The translations under genes were made by a program, and so were the position numbers. This document shows, in pieces, positions 43,839 through 55,766 of a stretch of DNA of 64,000 nucleotides. Source of the DNA: an uncultured Lachnospiraceae bacterium (GTDB lineage Bacteria; Bacillota; Clostridia; Lachnospirales; Lachnospiraceae); NCBI GenBank assembly GCA_949155905.1, contig CASCWU010000003.1:1-64000 (forward strand). The letters are read 5' to 3'. How positions within the stretch are numbered: position 1 is the stretch's first letter; every line of letters starts with the position of its first letter. The notes beneath the pieces were generated by a model. That model did not search any database. It had not been told where the DNA came from and saw only the letters and a list, made by a program, of their open reading frames with translations.

Positions 43839-43982
43839 TTACCTCAATAATTCTGCATGATATGCTATACTCTGTTTCAAATTCATGACACCCATTTCAA
43901 TGGCTTTTGCAATTAAAAAACCTGCGATTACAATAGCTGCAGCAATAAGCAAATAACCTATTAAGTTTTGATAATTTTTCAT
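43839..43982 (-). CDS. 47-residue single-span membrane peptide
   Basis: MKNYQNLIGYLLIAAAIVIA begins a single hydrophobic helix (residues 7-25), then KAIEMGVMNLKQSIAYHAEL. Too short for routine calling, but it has AAGGA ten bases upstream, lies 34 bases downstream of a secreted-protein gene on the same strand and is followed by a clear terminator, so it is probably expressed. Could be an accessory or immunity-like membrane peptide for the gene at 44016; that is only a guess. Confidence 0.6.
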   Translation of the reverse strand: MKNYQNLIGYLLIAAAIVIAGFLIAKAIEMGVMNLKQSIAYHAELLR

Positions 43983-44015: not shown

Positions 44016-44546
44016 TTAATGTACCCCAAAACGCTTATCATTGCTATATCCTACACCGAATGCATCTGCATCTCCTACATTTGATGTCAAAGATCCAACA
44101 TGCCAATTTCTATTGTTCCAATTACCTCCACATGTAACGCTCCAACTATTTTCCCATGCCTCATAAAAAATGGTTGGAGTTTGCATTGTAATATCATTTG
44201 TTCCACTATATGGAACTGTAGTAGGGGTATTTGTATTTGGCATAAACTCATAAACTCCATACATTTCTAACCTTTTGTTAATCTCTTCTTTTTCTTTGCC
44301 TGATGCAAAAGTTGACTGCATCATTAGTTTTTCAATTTCCTCTAAAGATCCACGTTCAATTTTTCCAGCCTTTAAATCAGTGGAATATCGAATATCCATT
44401 TGCTGTGAAAACTCCAACTTGCTATTTGCCTCCAAATATACCTCTGCTGAACTCATAACAGAGGGAGAACTTTCTTCTGCTGAAACAGGTATTGTCATTC
44501 CCATAAAAAGAGCCGCCAAAAGAACAAATGCTACTAATTTTTTCAT
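44016..44546 (-). CDS. Secreted protein of unknown function
   Basis: 176 residues. Signal peptide KKLVAFVLLAALFMGMTIPV ending SAEE. The first part of the mature protein is helical (SLEEIEKLMMQSTFASGKEK); the C-terminal part is Asn/Thr/Trp-rich (PTIFYEAWENSWSVTCGGNW), possibly beta. AAGGAGG lies eight bases before the ATG. The C-terminus stops soon after GYSNDKRFGVH and may be shortened relative to relatives. It is co-directional with a 47-residue membrane peptide and its upstream region abuts the peptide-regulator module, whose regulator may control it. Unrecognised. Confidence 0.65.
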   Translation of the reverse strand: MKKLVAFVLLAALFMGMTIPVSAEESSPSVMSSAEVYLEANSKLEFSQQMDIRYSTDLKAGKIERGSLEEIEKLMMQSTFASGKEKEEINKRLEMYGVYEFMPNTNTPTTVPYSGTNDITMQTPTIFYEAWENSWSVTCGGNWNNRNWHVGSLTSNVGDADAFGVGYSNDKRFGVH

Positions 44547-44752
44547 TATATTATCCTCCTTGAGTAACTGGTTGTATATAGATAGAGTCGCCTATAAACT
44601 CATATGTTGATTATGCAGTTTATATCTATAAAAATTCTTTTATTTAATTTCTCTATCCTGCTCCTCTTTTCATCTCATCATCCCTCCTTTCCATCTCGTC
44701 GCACCTCCTCTCCGTTTGTTCTGCCCTCATCCTAACACATTTTTTGTCCAAA

Positions 44753-44828
44753 CAGAATGATGTTTGAAACAATTCAGAGGAAAATTGTTTCAAACGTCAT
44801 TCTGTTTCTATCCATTTTATCCTATACT
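44753..44828 (+). promoter_or_regulatory. Palindromic operator and promoter of the secreted peptide gene
   Basis: A 22-bp inverted repeat, CAGAATGATGTTTGAAACAA.. and its partner ..TTGTTTCAAACGTCATTCTG (44753-44774 and 44783-44804, one mismatch, 8-base loop), is followed after 18 bases by TATACT (44823-44828). The -35 position overlaps the palindrome end and lacks a good hexamer, as expected for an activator-dependent promoter. The copy at 54806 has the same geometry. Confidence 0.7.
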
Positions 44829-44850
44829 TAAACGCGTAGCAAATATCCAA

Positions 44851-44882
44851 GGAATTGATAAAAATCATTTTTTAACAATTCC
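44851..44882 (+). promoter_or_regulatory. Leader hairpin of the secreted peptide mRNA
   Basis: GGAATTG ... CAATTCC (44851-44857 and 44876-44882) in the 5' untranslated region. The stem is kept and extended by one G-C pair in the second copy at 54902-54933. Confidence 0.55.
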
Positions 44883-44926
44883 TTACACACGACTAAAAAT
44901 TTACTATGAAGGAGGTCATACCTACT

Positions 44927-45127
44927 ATGAAACTGAAAAAATGTCTTACTACCCTAGCCACCCTATCCCTTTCTCTAACGGTTCTTCTTCCGTTTACACC
45001 GCCGCCAGATCCAAAACCTCCGGTCGGAAACGAAGCAGAAGATCCTGCCCCTGATTCAAATCCAGACGAAAAAGAACCAGGTGCAGAACCTCAAAGCGAT
45101 AAAAATCGGCCTCCTAAACGTAAATAG
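44927..45127 (+). CDS. Secreted proline-rich propeptide (candidate signal peptide)
   Basis: 66 residues. Hydrophobic export sequence MKLKKCLTTLATLSLSLTVL then LPFTPPPDPKPP, an acidic proline-rich middle, and a basic end NRPPKRK. AAGGAGG lies 11 bases upstream of ATG 44927. A second copy at 54978 is the same length: sequence differences are mostly third-position or 6-base in-frame indels, showing selection on the protein; the final 17 residues (from EPGAEPQSDKN) are identical. It ends nine bases from the end of a convergent XRE/TPR regulator gene. Export signal, conserved C-terminus and adjacent TPR regulator fit the RRNPP scheme in which the processed tail is reimported to bind the regulator. 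No experimental support is known to me. Confidence 0.75.
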   Translation: MKLKKCLTTLATLSLSLTVLLPFTPPPDPKPPVGNEAEDPAPDSNPDEKEPGAEPQSDKNRPPKRK

Positions 45128-45135
45128 ACACCTTG

Positions 45136-47142
45136 TCAAACCCATTTTACTCCATATTTTTTTTCACAGCGTTCCTTGATAAACCGAGCGTCAGCGCTTT
45201 GTTTTGCTATGGCTGCAATCACATAACTTTCATAAAACAACGGTACACACGTTTTCTGGATTGCAGCCATATCCTGTTTCTCCTGTTCCATCTTCTGCTC
45301 CGTATTCCAGGCGATTTCATATAACAGACTACTCACCGTATAGGGTCTTTGCATCCGATAGGCAAGCGGAGGCGCTTCCTCCGCCAGTTTCAGCGCCTCC
45401 TCATATTCCCCGTCACTTCCCAGAGAATTCACCAGATTTTCCACGATCAGCAAATAGGCGGTCGCATTGTACTCCAGCTTCATTCCCTCTTCCTGATATT
45501 TCAGAACTCCCTTTTTCACCTTCTCACGGGACGATTTCCGGAATTTTACTAACTGGTTCATCGTGACATGATACCGCTTCTTTGCCTCTCTCAGCAAACG
45601 GATAGCCTCTTTCCGATCTCCTAATTTCTCAAAGGCAATCGAAATATTATTCAAAATCTCTGCCTCTATTTCTGTCAAAGGCCAGAGCCAAAGCTCGCAT
45701 TCCTCATCCACCGTCAGGTAAAATGCTTTCTGGAGCAGTTCCAGCTCCTGCTTCCGGCTGATTCTTCCCAGTTCTCCTTCTATGATCGCATAGGTACTGA
45801 TAAGATATTGCTGATTAAAAGGATTCTCCTGACCGTTTTCCAGTTCTAACTCCCTTCTTAGCTCCTTTAATACCTCTCCTGCCTCCTGGTAGCGTTGGCT
45901 GCTAATCAGCATATCTATTTTTGTTGCAAGTAAAATCAGATCATACCGTTTGGTACGGATTTTTGGATAAAAGCGGCAGGTATCCGCCCCCAGGCGTTCC
46001 AACAGCTCGGTAAAGTGCTTCAGGGAGGGCTTGCTCTCTCCCCGTTCTATCGCCCCCAGGCGTTCCGGCTCGCAAATGCCTGGACATACCTTCTCCTCTG
46101 AAAGTCCCTTGCTCAGCCGCAGGCGTAAAAGCCGCTCTCCCAACACCTGACCGCGGTAGATCATATTCAGCAAGGGGTAGAAATAACGCCGGGAGTCCCA
46201 TGGTATCGTCGGCCTTTTCAAGAAGGCCTCCAGGATCGGAATTGCCTCCCGGTATAGCTCGGGATTCTCTCCTTCTGGAACCGGAACGCCTCCCTTTTCC
46301 CATCCTGCCAAAGATAAGCGCACCAAATCTTTTAATCCATACATCCGGTGCTGCTCCCAGAGGCAGGCCAGCCCCTTCTCACAAACAGACAATTCCGCAT
46401 ACCGCTTTTCCTTTCGCAGCTCTTCCGCCAGACTTAATACCGTTTCCGGGTAAAGGTAATTCAGACGCTTTTTATCCAGAGAGCGCCTTTCTATGTAGGC
46501 AAGAATCTCCTGGTAGAGCCAAATGCCTGTCTGTAAACGATCCTGACGATCCGGATAACGTCTGCCGGATCGTCCCTGCCGACACTCTCCCTCCGCCAGC
46601 AAAATCAAAAGAGCCTGCTCCTGTTCTCCGTACAGAAAGCTTTGAATCTTCTCCAGGGAAAAACCGGGAACCGTCAGGCGAAGGAGTGCCACCAGCTCCT
46701 CCCTTCTGTCCTGCTGATCTCCCTGCTCCATCCTAAGAGCGTTTTGGATATAACCGATAAACTGCCGGTGCAGTTCTTCCTTTCCGATTCCCTGTGTGTT
46801 TTTACGTCTTTTTTTCCCCAGCGCCTCCTCAAACTCCTGTTTGTATTCCTCTAATAACTGCTCTGTGCTGCAAAAGGCGCCCTCCCGCAGCGTATAGACA
46901 ATCTCATTCCGCCGCTGCAAAAACAAATACTCTGGCAAAAAGTAAGAAATTCCATACGCTCCCAGAGAGACCCCAATCCGCTCAAACAGCACCTCCAGCG
47001 TAAAGCTGTCCGGTTCCAGATCGCCCTGCTCGAAATGACAGCAGGCGGCCGTATCGTACAGTCCATAGCAAACCAGCGTCCGTTTTAAGTTCTGCAGTTC
47101 TCGAATCCATTTAAAGATTGCCCCCATGGAAATATGGTTCAT
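45136..47142 (-). CDS. RRNPP-like regulator: XRE helix-turn-helix with TPR repeats
   Basis: About 668 residues from ATG 47142; a TTG at 47154 also opens the frame and neither has an ideal site. The N-terminus (IRELQNLKRTLVCYGLYDTA, then FTLEVLFERIGVSLG) looks like a divergent XRE domain; a second, clearer XRE-type segment, VLGERLLRLRLSKGLSEEKV then RLGAIERGESKPSLKHFTEL, lies near residue 340. The C-terminal half is TPR-like helices (EAGEVLKELRRELELENGQE, AEILNNISIAFEKLGDRKEA, EEALKLAEEAPPLAYRM). Soluble. This is the architecture of peptide-sensing regulators such as Rgg, PlcR and PrgX. It converges with a secreted peptide gene. Partial copies occur at 49562-49805 and 55184-55345. Confidence 0.75.
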   Translation of the reverse strand: MNHISMGAIFKWIRELQNLKRTLVCYGLYDTAACCHFEQGDLEPDSFTLEVLFERIGVSLGAYGISYFLPEYLFLQRRNEIVYTLREGAFCSTEQLLEEYKQEFEEALGKKRRKNTQGIGKEELHRQFIGYIQNALRMEQGDQQDRREELVALLRLTVPGFSLEKIQSFLYGEQEQALLILLAEGECRQGRSGRRYPDRQDRLQTGIWLYQEILAYIERRSLDKKRLNYLYPETVLSLAEELRKEKRYAELSVCEKGLACLWEQHRMYGLKDLVRLSLAGWEKGGVPVPEGENPELYREAIPILEAFLKRPTIPWDSRRYFYPLLNMIYRGQVLGERLLRLRLSKGLSEEKVCPGICEPERLGAIERGESKPSLKHFTELLERLGADTCRFYPKIRTKRYDLILLATKIDMLISSQRYQEAGEVLKELRRELELENGQENPFNQQYLISTYAIIEGELGRISRKQELELLQKAFYLTVDEECELWLWPLTEIEAEILNNISIAFEKLGDRKEAIRLLREAKKRYHVTMNQLVKFRKSSREKVKKGVLKYQEEGMKLEYNATAYLLIVENLVNSLGSDGEYEEALKLAEEAPPLAYRMQRPYTVSSLLYEIAWNTEQKMEQEKQDMAAIQKTCVPLFYESYVIAAIAKQSADARFIKERCEKKYGVKWV

Positions 47143-47277
47143 CCAGTTATACAATTCCTCCAGTTATCCAGCCTCTTGTGCTTTTTCTTTTTCTCGTTGT
47201 ATCTTTGCGACAGGTAAGAACGCCCTCCGCCTTTCTGTTATGTAATGCCTTTTATTCTACATTTTACCATATAGAAT

Positions 47278-47438
47278 GATTAGGGTGTCAAAAGGTATTC
47301 AAGCAATGAATTGTAGTTATTGTTTGTAAATTGTTTGTGATATCCTTTCAAAACCGGAGAATTTTTCTATTGATTTCAGGTAAAATTCTCATACAATTAA
47401 AACAACTCCAGAGAGCAGTACCTTTTGACACCCTAATC
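47278..47438. mobile_element. 161-bp MITE with 20-bp inverted ends
   Basis: GATTAGGGTGTCAAAAGGTA (47278-47297) and its exact reverse complement (47419-47438) bound a non-coding AT-rich element. It is flanked on both sides by ATAGAAT (47271-47277 and 47439-47445), a 7-bp target duplication. No gene inside. It sits just upstream of the regulator gene. Confidence 0.85.
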
Positions 47439-47504
47439 ATAGAATACGAGGTTTCAAGAACAAACGCAAATCTGCACAAGATAAACATATGGAATCATTT
47501 AGAT

Positions 47505-49436: not shown

Positions 49437-49561
49437 TAAGGCTCTAAGAAGTTATTTTATCGCCTTCTCTTTCTACATATAGAACAAGTAAATAATATAT
49501 TTTGTGACTATCATATACCTTCAGGAAATCTGTAATTGATTGGCTAACTGAAGCAGATCTT

Positions 49562-49805
49562 TCTCGAAATGACAGCAGGCGGCCGAATCGTACAGTCCAT
49601 AGCAAACCAGTGTCCGTTTTAAGTTCTGCAGTTCTCGAATCCATTTAAAGATTGCCCCCATGGAAATATGGTTCATCCAGTTATACAATTCCTCCCGTTA
49701 TCCAGCCTTTTGTGCTTTTTCTTTTTCTCGTTGTATCTTTGCGGCAGGTAAGAACGCCCTCCGCCTTTCTGTTATGTAATGCCTTTCATTCTACATTTTA
49801 CCATA
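49562..49805 (-). pseudogene. 5' remnant of a second XRE/TPR regulator
   Basis: Nearly identical to 47028-47275, the first 38 codons and upstream sequence of the intact regulator (start equivalent at 49676; MNHISMGAIFKWIRELQNLK). Identity stops sharply at about 49562, where protease-side sequence begins, and at 49805, where the IS begins. Only the N-terminal helix-turn-helix part survives. Confidence 0.85.
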
Positions 49806-51129
49806 CTTGAGAGTGAAAAGTTTATAGCACTAAGAAGCCAGGAAATCCTCATAGATTTTTGACTTATCCTGCTTTTCCTGAATTATTTGTGTTATACGTA
49901 ATTCCGGCCTTTTCCCTAAAAGTCGAAAAAAATGGTAGCAAAACGCCCCAATCTGCTGTTTCAGCTCCCGGAAGGTACACTCAATCCGAAACTGGTAGCT
50001 GTATAACCGGAGGATGGTAAGGGGATCCAGTCCCAGGCTGGTACTGACTAAAATACTTTGGATCCCATTCCACTCTACCAATACAAAACGGAGTTCCTGG
50101 TAGAGTTGCTGGTGCCAGAGAAGATCCACACAGTAATAATGGACGGTTTCTTTCTTCCCATACAGTTCCATCCTGGCTTCCTGGAACTGTTCTTTCCGAG
50201 AGGAAAACAGTTCCTTCAGGTGGAGTGTTGCCCCTTTTTTCCTGGGACGTCCCCTGCCAGGCTGTTTCGCCGTTGGTTTCTCATAGGCGACACAAGATTT
50301 TTTGGCTTTCGTCACCAGCTCCAGGGTATGGCCTCCGTTTTGGAAGGAAGCCAGTGTTTCCAGGGCTGGCCGACTCAGGAAATACCGATCTAAGAGCAAC
50401 AGAGAATCCCCGAATACTTGGGTGGCCCGGCAGGCATCCTCGAGCATCTGCACTACATGGGAGGAACTATGGATAGAAGGGCTCCACTTCTTTGCAGCCT
50501 GAAGGCCATCGTGGAGCCGGATGCTTAACGGGACACAAGCCCAATGCCCGACGCTTCCTGCCAGGATACCAAGGCCGCCAAACAGATGGCCATGGATGTA
50601 CTCTGGTTTGGCAGAGTTTTCGGATTCCTGGAACAACTTTTTTATCCCTGGCATCCGGCGGCCTTCCTTGGATTGCTTGACCCCATCCCCGACCAGGACA
50701 TAGCGGTTCCCTTCCTGGTAAAGGGGAAGGAATTCTTTGGCAGTCTGGAACCAACGCTGCCGTAGCTGCTCCAAAGACCAGGAGGAAGCCCGGAAAAAGT
50801 GCAGCATGGAGTGGTAACAGCCAGGATCCAGGGCCAGATCCCGGATAATAGAGGTAAGCCCCAATTGATCGGAACGGAGCAGGAAGCCAAGGACAATGGT
50901 CACAAACCAGTGGAAGGAAGCCTTCCGGGAAAAACAGGATGCAAAGGAAGCGAATAAATTTTCGATAAAAGATAGCATTATGATATGGTAAACCACGGGA
51001 AAGTGTGCTATACTGATTACTAGAATAACTCTTTCGGTGGTTTGTCTCCTTTCTAGTTTCGCAACTTTAAGGATACCACAAAATCATAAGAAAGGGTTAT
51101 TCTTTTTTTGAAAACTTTTAACTCTCAAG
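49806..51129. mobile_element. Insertion sequence, about 1.3 kb
   Basis: Ends CTTGAGAGTGAAAAGTTT (left, 49806-49823) and CTTGAGAGTTAAAAGTTT (right end read inward, 51129-51112), 18 bp with one mismatch, enclose one transposase gene. A subterminal pair of GAATAACTCTTTC-type and GAAAGGGTTATTC-type arms lies near 51023 and 51090. No target duplication is recognised; flanking bases differ. The right end supplies the last codons of the gene at 51118. Confidence 0.8.
49830..50978 (-). CDS. DDE transposase of the IS (IS4/IS701-like)
   Basis: 382 residues from ATG 50978 (GTG at 50996 also opens the frame; neither has a clear site). DDE elements: GDGVKQSKEGRRMPG (first Asp), LLLDRYFLSRPALETL (second Asp), and YQFRIECTFRELKQQIGAFC (Glu, YREK-like). 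It has a HTH-like start and GRGRPRKKGA linker. The region after YHFFRLLG is shorter than I expect from larger relatives and may carry a deletion. Transposition mechanism is cut-and-paste by the family. Moderately GC-rich compared with the DNA around it. Confidence 0.82.
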   Translation of the reverse strand: MLSFIENLFASFASCFSRKASFHWFVTIVLGFLLRSDQLGLTSIIRDLALDPGCYHSMLHFFRASSWSLEQLRQRWFQTAKEFLPLYQEGNRYVLVGDGVKQSKEGRRMPGIKKLFQESENSAKPEYIHGHLFGGLGILAGSVGHWACVPLSIRLHDGLQAAKKWSPSIHSSSHVVQMLEDACRATQVFGDSLLLLDRYFLSRPALETLASFQNGGHTLELVTKAKKSCVAYEKPTAKQPGRGRPRKKGATLHLKELFSSRKEQFQEARMELYGKKETVHYYCVDLLWHQQLYQELRFVLVEWNGIQSILVSTSLGLDPLTILRLYSYQFRIECTFRELKQQIGAFCYHFFRLLGKRPELRITQIIQEKQDKSKIYEDFLAS

Positions 51130-53689: not shown

Positions 53690-54319
53690 TTAGCTTTTCG
53701 GTTCTTCCAGACAGGCTCGGATCGCCTCGCAATATTCCTCCAGAGATATTTCTGTTGTGTAATATGGCTTCTCTTCTGCCTCTATCTCCTGAGCGACCGT
53801 TTCAAAGGGAAGAATATAACTCCCTACCTGAATTTGTTGATTTTCATCTACGATGAACAAAGCCAGTGGTGCGATTAATTTATTTGTTTCGTTTAAAAAA
53901 ATTAATATTTCCTCTCCTTTTTGTAGTTCATGAATATCGGTACAAATATAGATTGTGTCTTCTGTTTCCCCTCCTTCTTCCTCATAAATTACGGTTTCGG
54001 CATCCGGATCTCCTTTTATACAATCCAATACCTGGATTTCTACTTCTCGATAATAGATTTTACTTATTTTTTCTCCTTCTGGAGTTTCCACATCATAATA
54101 TTTCGTATCACTTTTGGTATTTACTATACCATGAACAATCGTGGTAGCCGCTTCTACTGCCTCCTCCAAATTATACCTTCTCCACATCCCAGTGGTTTTA
54201 ATGATAGTCTTTTCAACAGTTTCTTCTGATTTTTGGCTGCATCCAGCTAACATAACTATAAGTAATAAAAAAAGTACTGTTGCTGTTTTTTCATTTTCAT
54301 ACCTCTCCCTTCTAATCAT
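53690..54319 (-). CDS. Lipoprotein with displaced start
   Basis: 209 residues with lipobox LAGC in VLFLLLIVMLAGCSQKSEET. The natural start would be MKMKKTATVLF, but the A-run there is one base short, so ATGAAAATGAAAAAA reads into another frame; an upstream ATG at 54319 (MIRRERYENEKTATVLF) keeps translation. The mature part has NLEEAVEAATTIVHGIVNTK, EVEIQVLDCIKGDPDAETVI, EEILIFLNETNK and VGSYILPFETVAQ. It overlaps the end of the metalloprotease frame by eight bases. Shares a fold pattern with the protein at 51118. Surface location; unknown function. Confidence 0.65.
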   Translation of the reverse strand: MIRRERYENEKTATVLFLLLIVMLAGCSQKSEETVEKTIIKTTGMWRRYNLEEAVEAATTIVHGIVNTKSDTKYYDVETPEGEKISKIYYREVEIQVLDCIKGDPDAETVIYEEEGGETEDTIYICTDIHELQKGEEILIFLNETNKLIAPLALFIVDENQQIQVGSYILPFETVAQEIEAEEKPYYTTEISLEEYCEAIRACLEEPKS

Positions 54320-54745
54320 ATATTATAATGTAAGAAGCTGTGTCATATTCTTGAAAAGTTCTTTTTATGTGACCAGGACTTACATATGGATTCATTACAT
54401 TACTCTCACATGTTTTGCTAAAGCATGGTGGCTCACTACCATCTTCATGACAATGTGCAACTCCTAACATATGTCCAAGTTCATGAAGTACCACTGTCTG
54501 AATATCATAACATCCCGGTGAATACCCTACAGACCATTTCTCTGTAGACGCCAAATGAATTGTAGCACCTAAAATTTCATCCCCTCGAAGGATATGTTCG
54601 GTATAGCCTATTTTAGGAAAAGAATAATTACTATAAATTACACGACTATCTGTAGCTCCTGTGGTTAGATAGAGGGAAACTATACTTTTCCCTTTGGTGT
54701 CACGCACTTTATTCCACTGTTGCATAGCAGCTCGCACTGCTTCCC
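54312..54745 (-). pseudogene. Metzincin-type zinc protease, N-terminus lost
   Basis: Catalytic motif HELGHMLGVAHCHE (HExxHxxGxxH) and the Met-turn-like SNVMNPY are present, preceded by AVRAAMQQWNKVRDTKG. Upstream of about 54745 the sequence becomes the flank of the peptide module, so the signal peptide and propeptide are missing; the apparent longer frame up to 54851 runs through the palindrome there and is an artefact. A secreted matrixin-like peptidase before truncation. Its stop overlaps the start of the lipoprotein gene at 54319. Confidence 0.7.
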
Positions 54746-54805
54746 ATCTCGTCGCACCTCCCTTCCGTTTGTTCTGCCCCCATCCTACCACAATCCCCAC
54801 TAAAG

Positions 54806-54879
54806 CAGAATGACGTTTGAAACAATATTCTGGAATTGTTTCAAACGTCATTCTGTTTCCTCCTATTTTACCGTATAAT
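54806..54879 (+). promoter_or_regulatory. Palindromic operator and promoter of the second peptide gene
   Basis: Perfect 21-bp inverted repeat CAGAATGACGTTTGAAACAA.. / ..TTGTTTCAAACGTCATTCTG (54806-54826 and 54835-54855, 8-base loop), then 18 bases, then TATAAT (54874-54879). Same geometry as 44753-44828, though the spacer and loop bases differ. Confidence 0.72.
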
Positions 54880-54901
54880 CAGACGCGTACCAAACATCAA
54901 A

Positions 54902-54933
54902 GGAATTGCTAAAAATCATTTTCTGGCAATTCC
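54902..54933 (+). promoter_or_regulatory. Leader hairpin of the second peptide mRNA
   Basis: GGAATTGC ... GCAATTCC (54902-54909 and 54926-54933), the counterpart of 44851-44882 with one extra pair. Confidence 0.55.
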
Positions 54934-54977
54934 TTACGCACACCAAAAATATTTTACTATGAAGGAGGTTTCCTATT

Positions 54978-55178
54978 ATGAAACTGAAAAAGTACCTTAC
55001 TACCGTAGCCACCTTATCACTTTCCCTGGCGGTTCTTCTCCCTTTTACCCCGCCGCCGGAACCGGATCCAAAACCGCCGGTTGAAAACGAAACGGAAGAT
55101 CCTGCACCTGATTCAAACAAAGAGGAACCAGGTGCAGAACCGCAAAGTGATAAAAATCGGCCTCCGAAACGTAAATAA
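54978..55178 (+). CDS. Second secreted proline-rich propeptide
   Basis: 66 residues: MKLKKYLTTVATLSLSLAVL LPFTPPPEP, an acidic proline-rich centre and the same basic end. GGAGG lies nine bases before the ATG. Compared with 44927-45127, the frame is kept despite many changes, and the C-terminal 17 residues from EPGAEPQSDKN are identical. The neighbouring regulator is reduced to a C-terminal stub at 55184-55345, so this peptide could act only on the intact regulator at 45136 or on nothing. Confidence in coding is high because of the two-copy comparison. Confidence 0.75.
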   Translation: MKLKKYLTTVATLSLSLAVLLPFTPPPEPDPKPPVENETEDPAPDSNKEEPGAEPQSDKNRPPKRK

Positions 55179-55183
55179 ACACC

Positions 55184-55345
55184 TTGTCAAATCCATTTTA
55201 CCTTATATTTTTTTTCACAACGCTCTTTGATAAACATAGCGTCAACGCTTTGTTTTGCTATGGCTGCAATCACATAACTTTTTATAACGATGATACACAT
55301 TTTTTCCGGATTGCAGCCATACCCTTCTTCATTTTCTGGATCTGC
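55184..55345 (-). pseudogene. C-terminal stub of a second XRE/TPR regulator
   Basis: Matches 45136-45300 of the intact regulator: AIAKQSVDAMFIKERCEKKY then KVKWI and TGA. One base is missing relative to the intact gene near 55295, so the frame is broken, and homology fades at about 55345 near the VapC stop. Not expressed as a regulator. Confidence 0.85.
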
Positions 55346-55355
55346 CCAGGAAAGT

Positions 55356-55766
55356 TCAAAAAGTGGAATCCACCCAATTTTCCAATTCTAAACCTGGTAC
55401 GCGTTCAAACTCCCGAATGTTATTTGTAACAAGAATCAGTCCTTCGGCTCTGGCGTGTCCGACAATTAACATATCAAGTGGTTCAATCGGTGTACCACGC
55501 TTTTGCAAATATGTCCGAATTTCCCCATACGCCGATGCTGCAGCTGCCTCAAAGGGAAGAATACTTAATGGGAGCAAAAACTTTAATAACGACTGTTCAT
55601 TTTGGGGCGGATTAAAGCTGTTTTTGATGATATACTCTAATTCTGCCAGAGTAATTGCCGAAACACATATCCCATTATCTAATTCTTTCTTAAATCGCTC
55701 TAAGACCTTTTCTGGCTTGTTTTTCATTACATAAATACAAATATTGGTATCTAGCATATATGTCAT
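55356..55766 (-). CDS. vapC: VapC-type PIN toxin
   Basis: 136 residues. PIN nuclease: YMLDTNICIYVMKNKP with Asp6, Glu42 in AELEYI, Asp98 in EPLDMLIVGHA, and VTNNIREFERV with the C-terminal acidic site. VapC cuts RNA, usually initiator tRNA or 23S rRNA, unless VapB binds. Its ATG overlaps the antitoxin stop by four bases (ATGA). The stop lies next to the regulator stub. Toxin sequence looks intact. Confidence 0.9.
   Translation of the reverse strand: MTYMLDTNICIYVMKNKPEKVLERFKKELDNGICVSAITLAELEYIIKNSFNPPQNEQSLLKFLLPLSILPFEAAAASAYGEIRTYLQKRGTPIEPLDMLIVGHARAEGLILVTNNIREFERVPGLELENWVDSTF

Follow-up and report, generated by a model that had tools for sequence, protein, structure and literature searches.

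The systems closest to the locus analysed here are PlcR-PapR of the Bacillus cereus group and the Rgg-SHP (Rgg2-Rgg3) and ComR-ComS systems of streptococci. The classical PlcR box reads TATGNAANNNNTTNCATA, and streptococcal Rgg/ComR peptide-regulator pairs have their operators at -35, with the SHPs being short hydrophobic peptides of about 20-30 amino acids. To our knowledge, little has been charted of how the Lachnospiraceae, Firmicutes that abound in the gut, signal between cells. Two further systems invite comparison, as set out in the accessible parts of their descriptions. The arbitrium receptor AimR of AimR-AimP, also of RRNPP type and with an operator of unusual length, acts as a dimer with one canonical HTH for each of two 6-bp boxes, which lie 25 bp apart (other spacers are tolerated) at the ends of the site and are its only repeated parts (PMC6458997). 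In enterobacterial bidirectional promoters, pseudo-symmetric DNA drives divergent transcription in which one polymerase excludes the other (PMC12825309).

In the window, by which we mean the whole 64,000-nucleotide stretch of DNA analysed, two long inverted repeats (dyads A and B) each precede a gene for a small peptide. We consider it probable (roughly 70%) that these dyads are operators of a quorum-sensing cassette of the RRNPP kind, in which a regulator together with its peptide would activate both the peptide gene and a divergent target. The candidate regulator gene (45136-47154, reverse strand; 672 aa as listed, start codon uncertain) is convergent with the gene for peptide A, and its product joins an N-terminal, Rgg-like HTH-TPR unit to a C-terminal, PlcR-like one, with HTH sequences at two places and TPR-like repeats. 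Pfam matches were to HTH_3 and TPR, that to HTH_3 at 21.0 bits falling just below the cut-off of 23. In a profile of 43 relatives, the C-terminal half matched PlcR end to end (E 2.3e-24) and the start of the N-terminal half matched Rgg2 (E about 1e-6). The AlphaFold model, from a 7-row alignment, was weak (mean pLDDT 66, pTM 0.43) and was used as support only; the top PDB fold match to this model was PlcR-PapR-DNA (3u3w). In some genomes, e.g. at loci L083, L104 and L113, the halves occur as separate, overlapping genes of ~310 aa each, and by this sequence comparison the window protein is therefore best read as two RRNPP-type units fused into one.

An HTH followed by TPRs, with an adjacent gene for a small, predicted secreted pro-peptide (here convergent), is the arrangement used to recognise RRNPP(A) receptors, and the regulator shows both features. 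Its length lies outside the 250-500 aa that RRNPP_detector allows for a receptor, each half on its own being ~310 aa; in the accessible part of its description, the program by default discards receptors above 500 aa (PMC10075063), so that the fused form would be missed. Beyond the match to PlcR along the whole C-terminal half, the likeness to PlcR-PapR extends to a secreted pro-peptide gene beside the regulator and to the feedback expected on that gene, whereas the two units in one chain, the convergent peptide gene, the 66-aa Pro-rich peptide and a mirror operator of 56-58 bp flanked by two -10 boxes are different; the PlcR box was absent from the dyad sequences when these were read by eye. 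With the streptococcal systems the locus shares, besides the Rgg2-like N-terminal half, the pairing of peptide and regulator with a putative operator at -35, but its fused double receptor and longer, signal-bearing, Pro-rich pro-peptide set it apart from Rgg-SHP, and peptide A is not of the SHP type in length and hydrophobic character. In its mode of action the cassette would resemble PlcR-PapR and Rgg-SHP, to which its parts are related; receptor size, gene layout and operator differ.

Peptide A is encoded on the forward strand at 44927-45127 (66 aa from the ATG at 44927; an in-frame ATG at 44906 would give 73 aa), and its stop lies 9 nt from the stop of the convergent regulator gene. It has a basic N-terminus, a hydrophobic stretch and a Pro-rich tail, with the C-terminus ...GAEPQSDKNRPPKRK. 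Peptide B (54978-55178, forward strand, 66 aa) is 89% identical, and the two genes are separated by 16 synonymous and 7 non-synonymous codon differences. The final 17 codons are free of non-synonymous changes, so that both genes appear to be maintained. They belong to a segmental duplication that comprises a common leader, dyad, promoter, peptide gene and regulator-gene end, the last of these adjoining peptide B as a C-terminal regulator remnant (55187-55363, reverse strand; match placed at 55190-55363). Copy B may be regarded as a putative satellite: its peptide gene and operator are intact but it lacks a full regulator gene, and the copy A regulator presumably acts on it.

Peptide genes of this kind are a regular feature of the family. 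Where the assembly continues for 300 bp or more 3' of the regulator (99 ends), a convergent, signal-bearing ORF was found in 70 cases, compared with 14 of 94 5' flanks, and the C-termini of 29 of these 70 peptides fit [IVL]x[PT][LQYFMWT] (shuffled mean 9.2, maximum 20), a motif chosen after the peptides had been seen; the automated picks at L030 and L033 differ from the peptides read by eye. The source genome holds nine near-full-length regulator paralogs, and all eight with a 3' flank in the assembly have a small signal-like frame convergent with the regulator, its start being damaged on contigs C25 and C2. On C25 (L030:2441-2630) the paralogous peptide gene is frameshifted within seven consecutive A just past the start codon, where sequencing error, decay and slippage are indistinguishable, and on C2 (L033:2880-3095) ATA stands at the expected ATG of the frame. 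As a separate observation, a conserved A+T-rich hairpin with 16-bp arms and a 4-nt loop is found at 44849-44884 and 54900-54935, where the 5' UTR of each peptide gene is presumed to lie, and might stabilise or control the peptide mRNA.

Dyad A (44750-44807; 25-bp arms) and dyad B (54803-54858; 24-bp arms) each have an 8-nt centre, and the inverted repeats that a sequence-only reading of this DNA had claimed for both peptide genes are thus present. The 20-mer CAGAATGACGTTTGAAACAA occurs in the window at 44753-44772 (+, one mismatch), 44785-44804 (-), 54806-54825 (+) and 54836-54855 (-), compared with an expectation of 0 from 100 shuffles of the window. That reading had also held that the arms are conserved while loop and spacer drifted; the right arms of A and B are indeed identical and the left arms differ at few positions (one inside the 20-mer), whereas loop, spacers and flanks have diverged. 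Its 18-base gap is likewise found, the forward-strand -10 boxes of the peptide A promoter (TATACT, 44823-44828) and the peptide B promoter (TATAAT, 54874-54879) both lying 18 bases past the 20-mer. A genome scan, which it had proposed as a way to find the regulon, returned at up to three mismatches the four dyad arms and one lone half-site with three mismatches across the source genome (3.57 Mb, 175 contigs). Full dyads of this sequence are confined to A and B, and the expected regulon would therefore be the two peptide genes and their divergent neighbours.

Absent from the earlier reading is a further -10 box that each dyad has on its other side, in the opposite orientation. Both are TAGGAT, at 44729-44734 for dyad A and at 54782-54787 for dyad B (reverse strand), and in both dyads the left and right boxes lie 15 and 15 nt from the extended arms. 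This second box could be an accident of A+T-rich flanks, with the peptide promoter alone being regulated, and some features lean that way: TAGGAT is a weak -10 box, left boxes are weaker than right ones in many relatives, and in 7 of 20 held-out dyads the best -10 boxes stand at unequal offsets. We nevertheless judge an accident to be decidedly unlikely, given how often the two offsets coincide. Among discovery dyads, the best left and right offsets agreed within 1 nt in 17 of 32 (re-paired mean 5.5). The prediction of equal offsets was fixed after the held-out loci had been fetched and before they were examined; these came from genomes of the same order, some of which share a genus with discovery genomes, and 23 of their 35 ends carried a dyad scoring at least 14, with agreement within 1 nt in 14 of the 23, and in 13 of 20 after stop-proximal dyads had been dropped (re-paired mean 4.1, maximum 11 in 20000). 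Agreement to 1 nt was thus seen in 30 of 52 dyads but in only 1 of 20 control inverted repeats from the same loci. The left box had a mean score of +0.61 at the exact offset and at most -2.25 at all other offsets from -10 to +10, and the spacers between dyad edge and -10 box are 26% identical between the two sides, which argues that the paired boxes are not merely part of a longer repeat. An accident also sits poorly with the divergent leader and ribosome site, which are conserved between A and B, and with the divergent ORFs of 60 aa or longer, preceded by a ribosome site, that start within 460 bp at 43 of 52 dyads (a count without a control).

The final symmetry tests left out dyads scoring below 14 or ending within 100 bp of the regulator stop; an earlier test had left out dyads below 13 and loci L103, L067, L127, L123 and L110. 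Close relatives (L116/L118, L152/L153 and L178/L179) were counted apart in the dyad and symmetry counts.

As far as can be read from these positions, each dyad is the symmetric centre of a predicted pair of divergent promoters, and the divergent gene is therefore very probably co-regulated with the peptide gene. This layout differs from that of AimR in that the inverted repeat runs along the whole of each arm (14-33 bp) and a promoter points outwards on either side. Unlike in the enterobacterial bidirectional promoters, about 90 bp with a putative regulator site separate the two -10 boxes, so both promoters could fire.

We propose that the convergent gene makes a secreted pro-peptide, the C-terminal part of which is probably the mature signal, and that the peptide, by analogy with the described systems, presumably returns into the cell, where the TPR domains would bind it. 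The mirror-image site would then be occupied by the regulator, its C-terminal HTH giving specificity. Because the site is symmetric and a -10 box stands at equal distance on each side, one bound complex could serve a pair of RNA polymerases pointing in opposite directions, at the peptide gene (positive feedback) and at the divergent target. The sequences themselves show the dyads, the paired -10 boxes, the gene arrangement, the family relations and the association of operator and HTH; that the regulator binds and activates instead of repressing, that the peptide matures and is imported, and that the system signals at all, we infer from RRNPP relatives. The distance from dyad centre to -10 box (median 44.5 nt, quartiles 42.5-47.9) would suit a peptide-dependent activator with a class-II-like geometry towards both promoters.

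The same cassette could work with the opposite sign, the regulator being a repressor that covers both promoters until the peptide releases it, in the manner of Rgg3 or PrgX. The dyads overlap the -35 region of both promoters, in agreement with the sequence-only reading, which is a point in favour of repression. That reading's claim that a -35 match is missing also holds, since TTGACA finds at best 2 of 6 matching bases in any of the four window promoters (15-19 bp spacing); they would therefore be weak without an activator, which speaks against repression, and the narrow range of centre-to--10 distances fits contact with polymerase better than simple blocking. Among relatives, however, a -35-like sequence with 4 or more matches to TTGACA (16-18 bp) is present in 22 of 60 symmetric promoters, compared with ~12% of background sites, and a repressor relieved by the peptide is for that reason a serious rival, albeit one that we consider unlikely. 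The positive feedback through an activator suggested earlier is thus consistent with the near-lack of a -35 box in the window and is tempered by the relatives, in which -35-like sequences are commoner than background.

An activator site also has to be weighed against a role of the dyads in RNA, as terminators or hairpins that, for example, end a regulator transcript running antisense through the peptide gene. The stems are long, with a mean computed energy of -30.9 kcal/mol, and many are flanked at their base by runs of A and T; 17 of 52 have at least 5 T in the 8 nt past the stem in the regulator direction. We regard this as highly improbable: intrinsic terminators combine a G+C-rich stem with a T run, whereas the mean G+C of the 52 dyads is 0.32, low for a terminator, and dyad A is followed in the regulator direction by GGACAAAA, with no T run. 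The dyads moreover lie upstream of the peptide gene and not between the convergent peptide and regulator genes, and a terminator would predict neither paired -10 boxes nor an association with the C-terminal HTH.

Such an association is seen across the family. Among 37 fused regulators, operator similarity was correlated with C-terminal HTH identity (partial Mantel r 0.325, 0 of 2000 permutations), whereas no such signal was obtained for the N-terminal HTH (partial r 0.065, 313 of 2000), the three other regulator parts being held constant in each case; L067, L158 and all unfused regulators were left out, and 40 regulators became 37 after removal of those at least 60% identical. When split by arm position the C-terminal HTH signal was weak, peaking at 0.178 for positions 17-24 nt out from the centre, no clear signal emerged for the N-terminal HTH, and the inverted repeat itself is strongest 6-23 nt from the centre. 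The C-terminal HTH thus appears, from these sequence correlations, to set specificity, and the outer arm positions show this best. The suggestion that the dyads are protein-binding operators gains from this result, from their presence at homologous loci and from their differences among paralogs, but needs amending in one respect, as each would be the operator of a divergent promoter as well as of the peptide gene. We also considered whether each arm is a pseudo-palindrome for two HTHs and obtained no support for it: internal palindrome scores averaged 2.34 against 2.13 for shuffled sequence in 41 arms of fused regulators (p about 0.17), and 3.00 against 2.98 in 9 arms of unfused ones.

The presumed target of dyad A (44016-44546, reverse strand) encodes a protein of 176 aa that starts with a signal-like sequence and matches no Pfam family; downstream of it an ORF for a 47-aa one-helix membrane peptide (43839-43982, reverse strand) is possibly part of the same transcript. 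At dyad B the divergent ORF (54312-54851, reverse strand) has an M10-type metalloprotease domain, its true start is uncertain, with the upstream part overlapping the dyad, and no clean start codon was found past the promoter. The 43 divergent products of the family include 7 radical SAM proteins and 2 each with EAL, ABC transporter and glycosyltransferase domains, and many others start with a signal-like sequence. The radical SAM targets are reminiscent of the Rgg-controlled RaS-RiPP loci of streptococci, as far as the accessible parts of the sources on these describe them. Divergent to the closest paralogous cassette (contig C19), a radical SAM ORF (L027:5580-5918) is cut after 113 aa; a longer reading frame starts nearby, and this is possibly a RiPP-type locus.

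Relatives of the regulator (E 1e-25 or better) occur in 34 of 397 sampled genomes of the family, and relatives were found in 59 of 392 sampled genomes of the order, those named being uncultured Lachnospiraceae and one Oscillospiraceae. Dyads scoring at least 14 lie in 35 of 63 regulator 3' flanks and in 7 of 57 5' flanks, so that the repeat recurs at homologous loci, and in a shuffled control this score was reached in 1 of 63 flanks across 20 shuffles each. All eight paralogs of the source genome with a 3' flank in the assembly carry a dyad there, with scores of 11 to 23 and a sequence that differs for each paralog. Ends that lack a dyad of this score number 28 of 63 in the discovery set and 12 of 35 in the held-out set, some of the ends below 14 keeping an imperfect dyad with the same outer core; loci fetched twice (L037, L039, L040, L041, L078, L086 and L087) were skipped. 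At L185-L187, an imperfect dyad 3' of the regulator has outer TGAC-type cores at conserved spacing. Carriage by mobile elements was also considered: 2 weak partial matches among 50,697 phage records and none among 72,556 plasmid records give no support for a mobile-element system.

We see even chances that these loci represent a large class of quorum-sensing systems, as yet without a name, that occurs in Lachnospiraceae and families related to them and in which fused PlcR/Rgg-type receptors act at a symmetric two-way promoter, the signal and a divergent effector (often a secreted protein or radical SAM enzyme) are co-activated, and the C-terminal HTH provides a readable operator code. In the open-licence PMC literature we found no description of such a system in Lachnospiraceae in titles and abstracts, and no paper with both 'RRNPP' and 'Lachnospiraceae' in its full text; the accessible portion of the main text of PMC12700828 has no mention of 'two HTH' or 'Lachno', and term searches of the accessible text of PMC10626739 and PMC3150281 gave nothing bearing on the dyad site. 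If such a class exists, the C-terminal HTH code would allow as many as nine signalling channels to coexist separately in a single genome, the layout would predict receptor, signal, binding site and first target gene for each locus, and direct tests would become feasible both of peptide signalling and of how it connects to secreted and RiPP-type effectors.

The region around these genes is a mosaic of decayed cassette copies. Besides the remnant beside peptide B, an N-terminal remnant of a third regulator copy lies at 49551-49688 (reverse strand; 89% identical over 46 residues) and adjoins a gene for an IS701-type transposase (49830-50996). Elsewhere in the window a MITE-like element of roughly 160 bp (47274-47441) is bounded by inverted copies of TTAGGGTGTCAAAAGGTA, with one further weak match in the genome.
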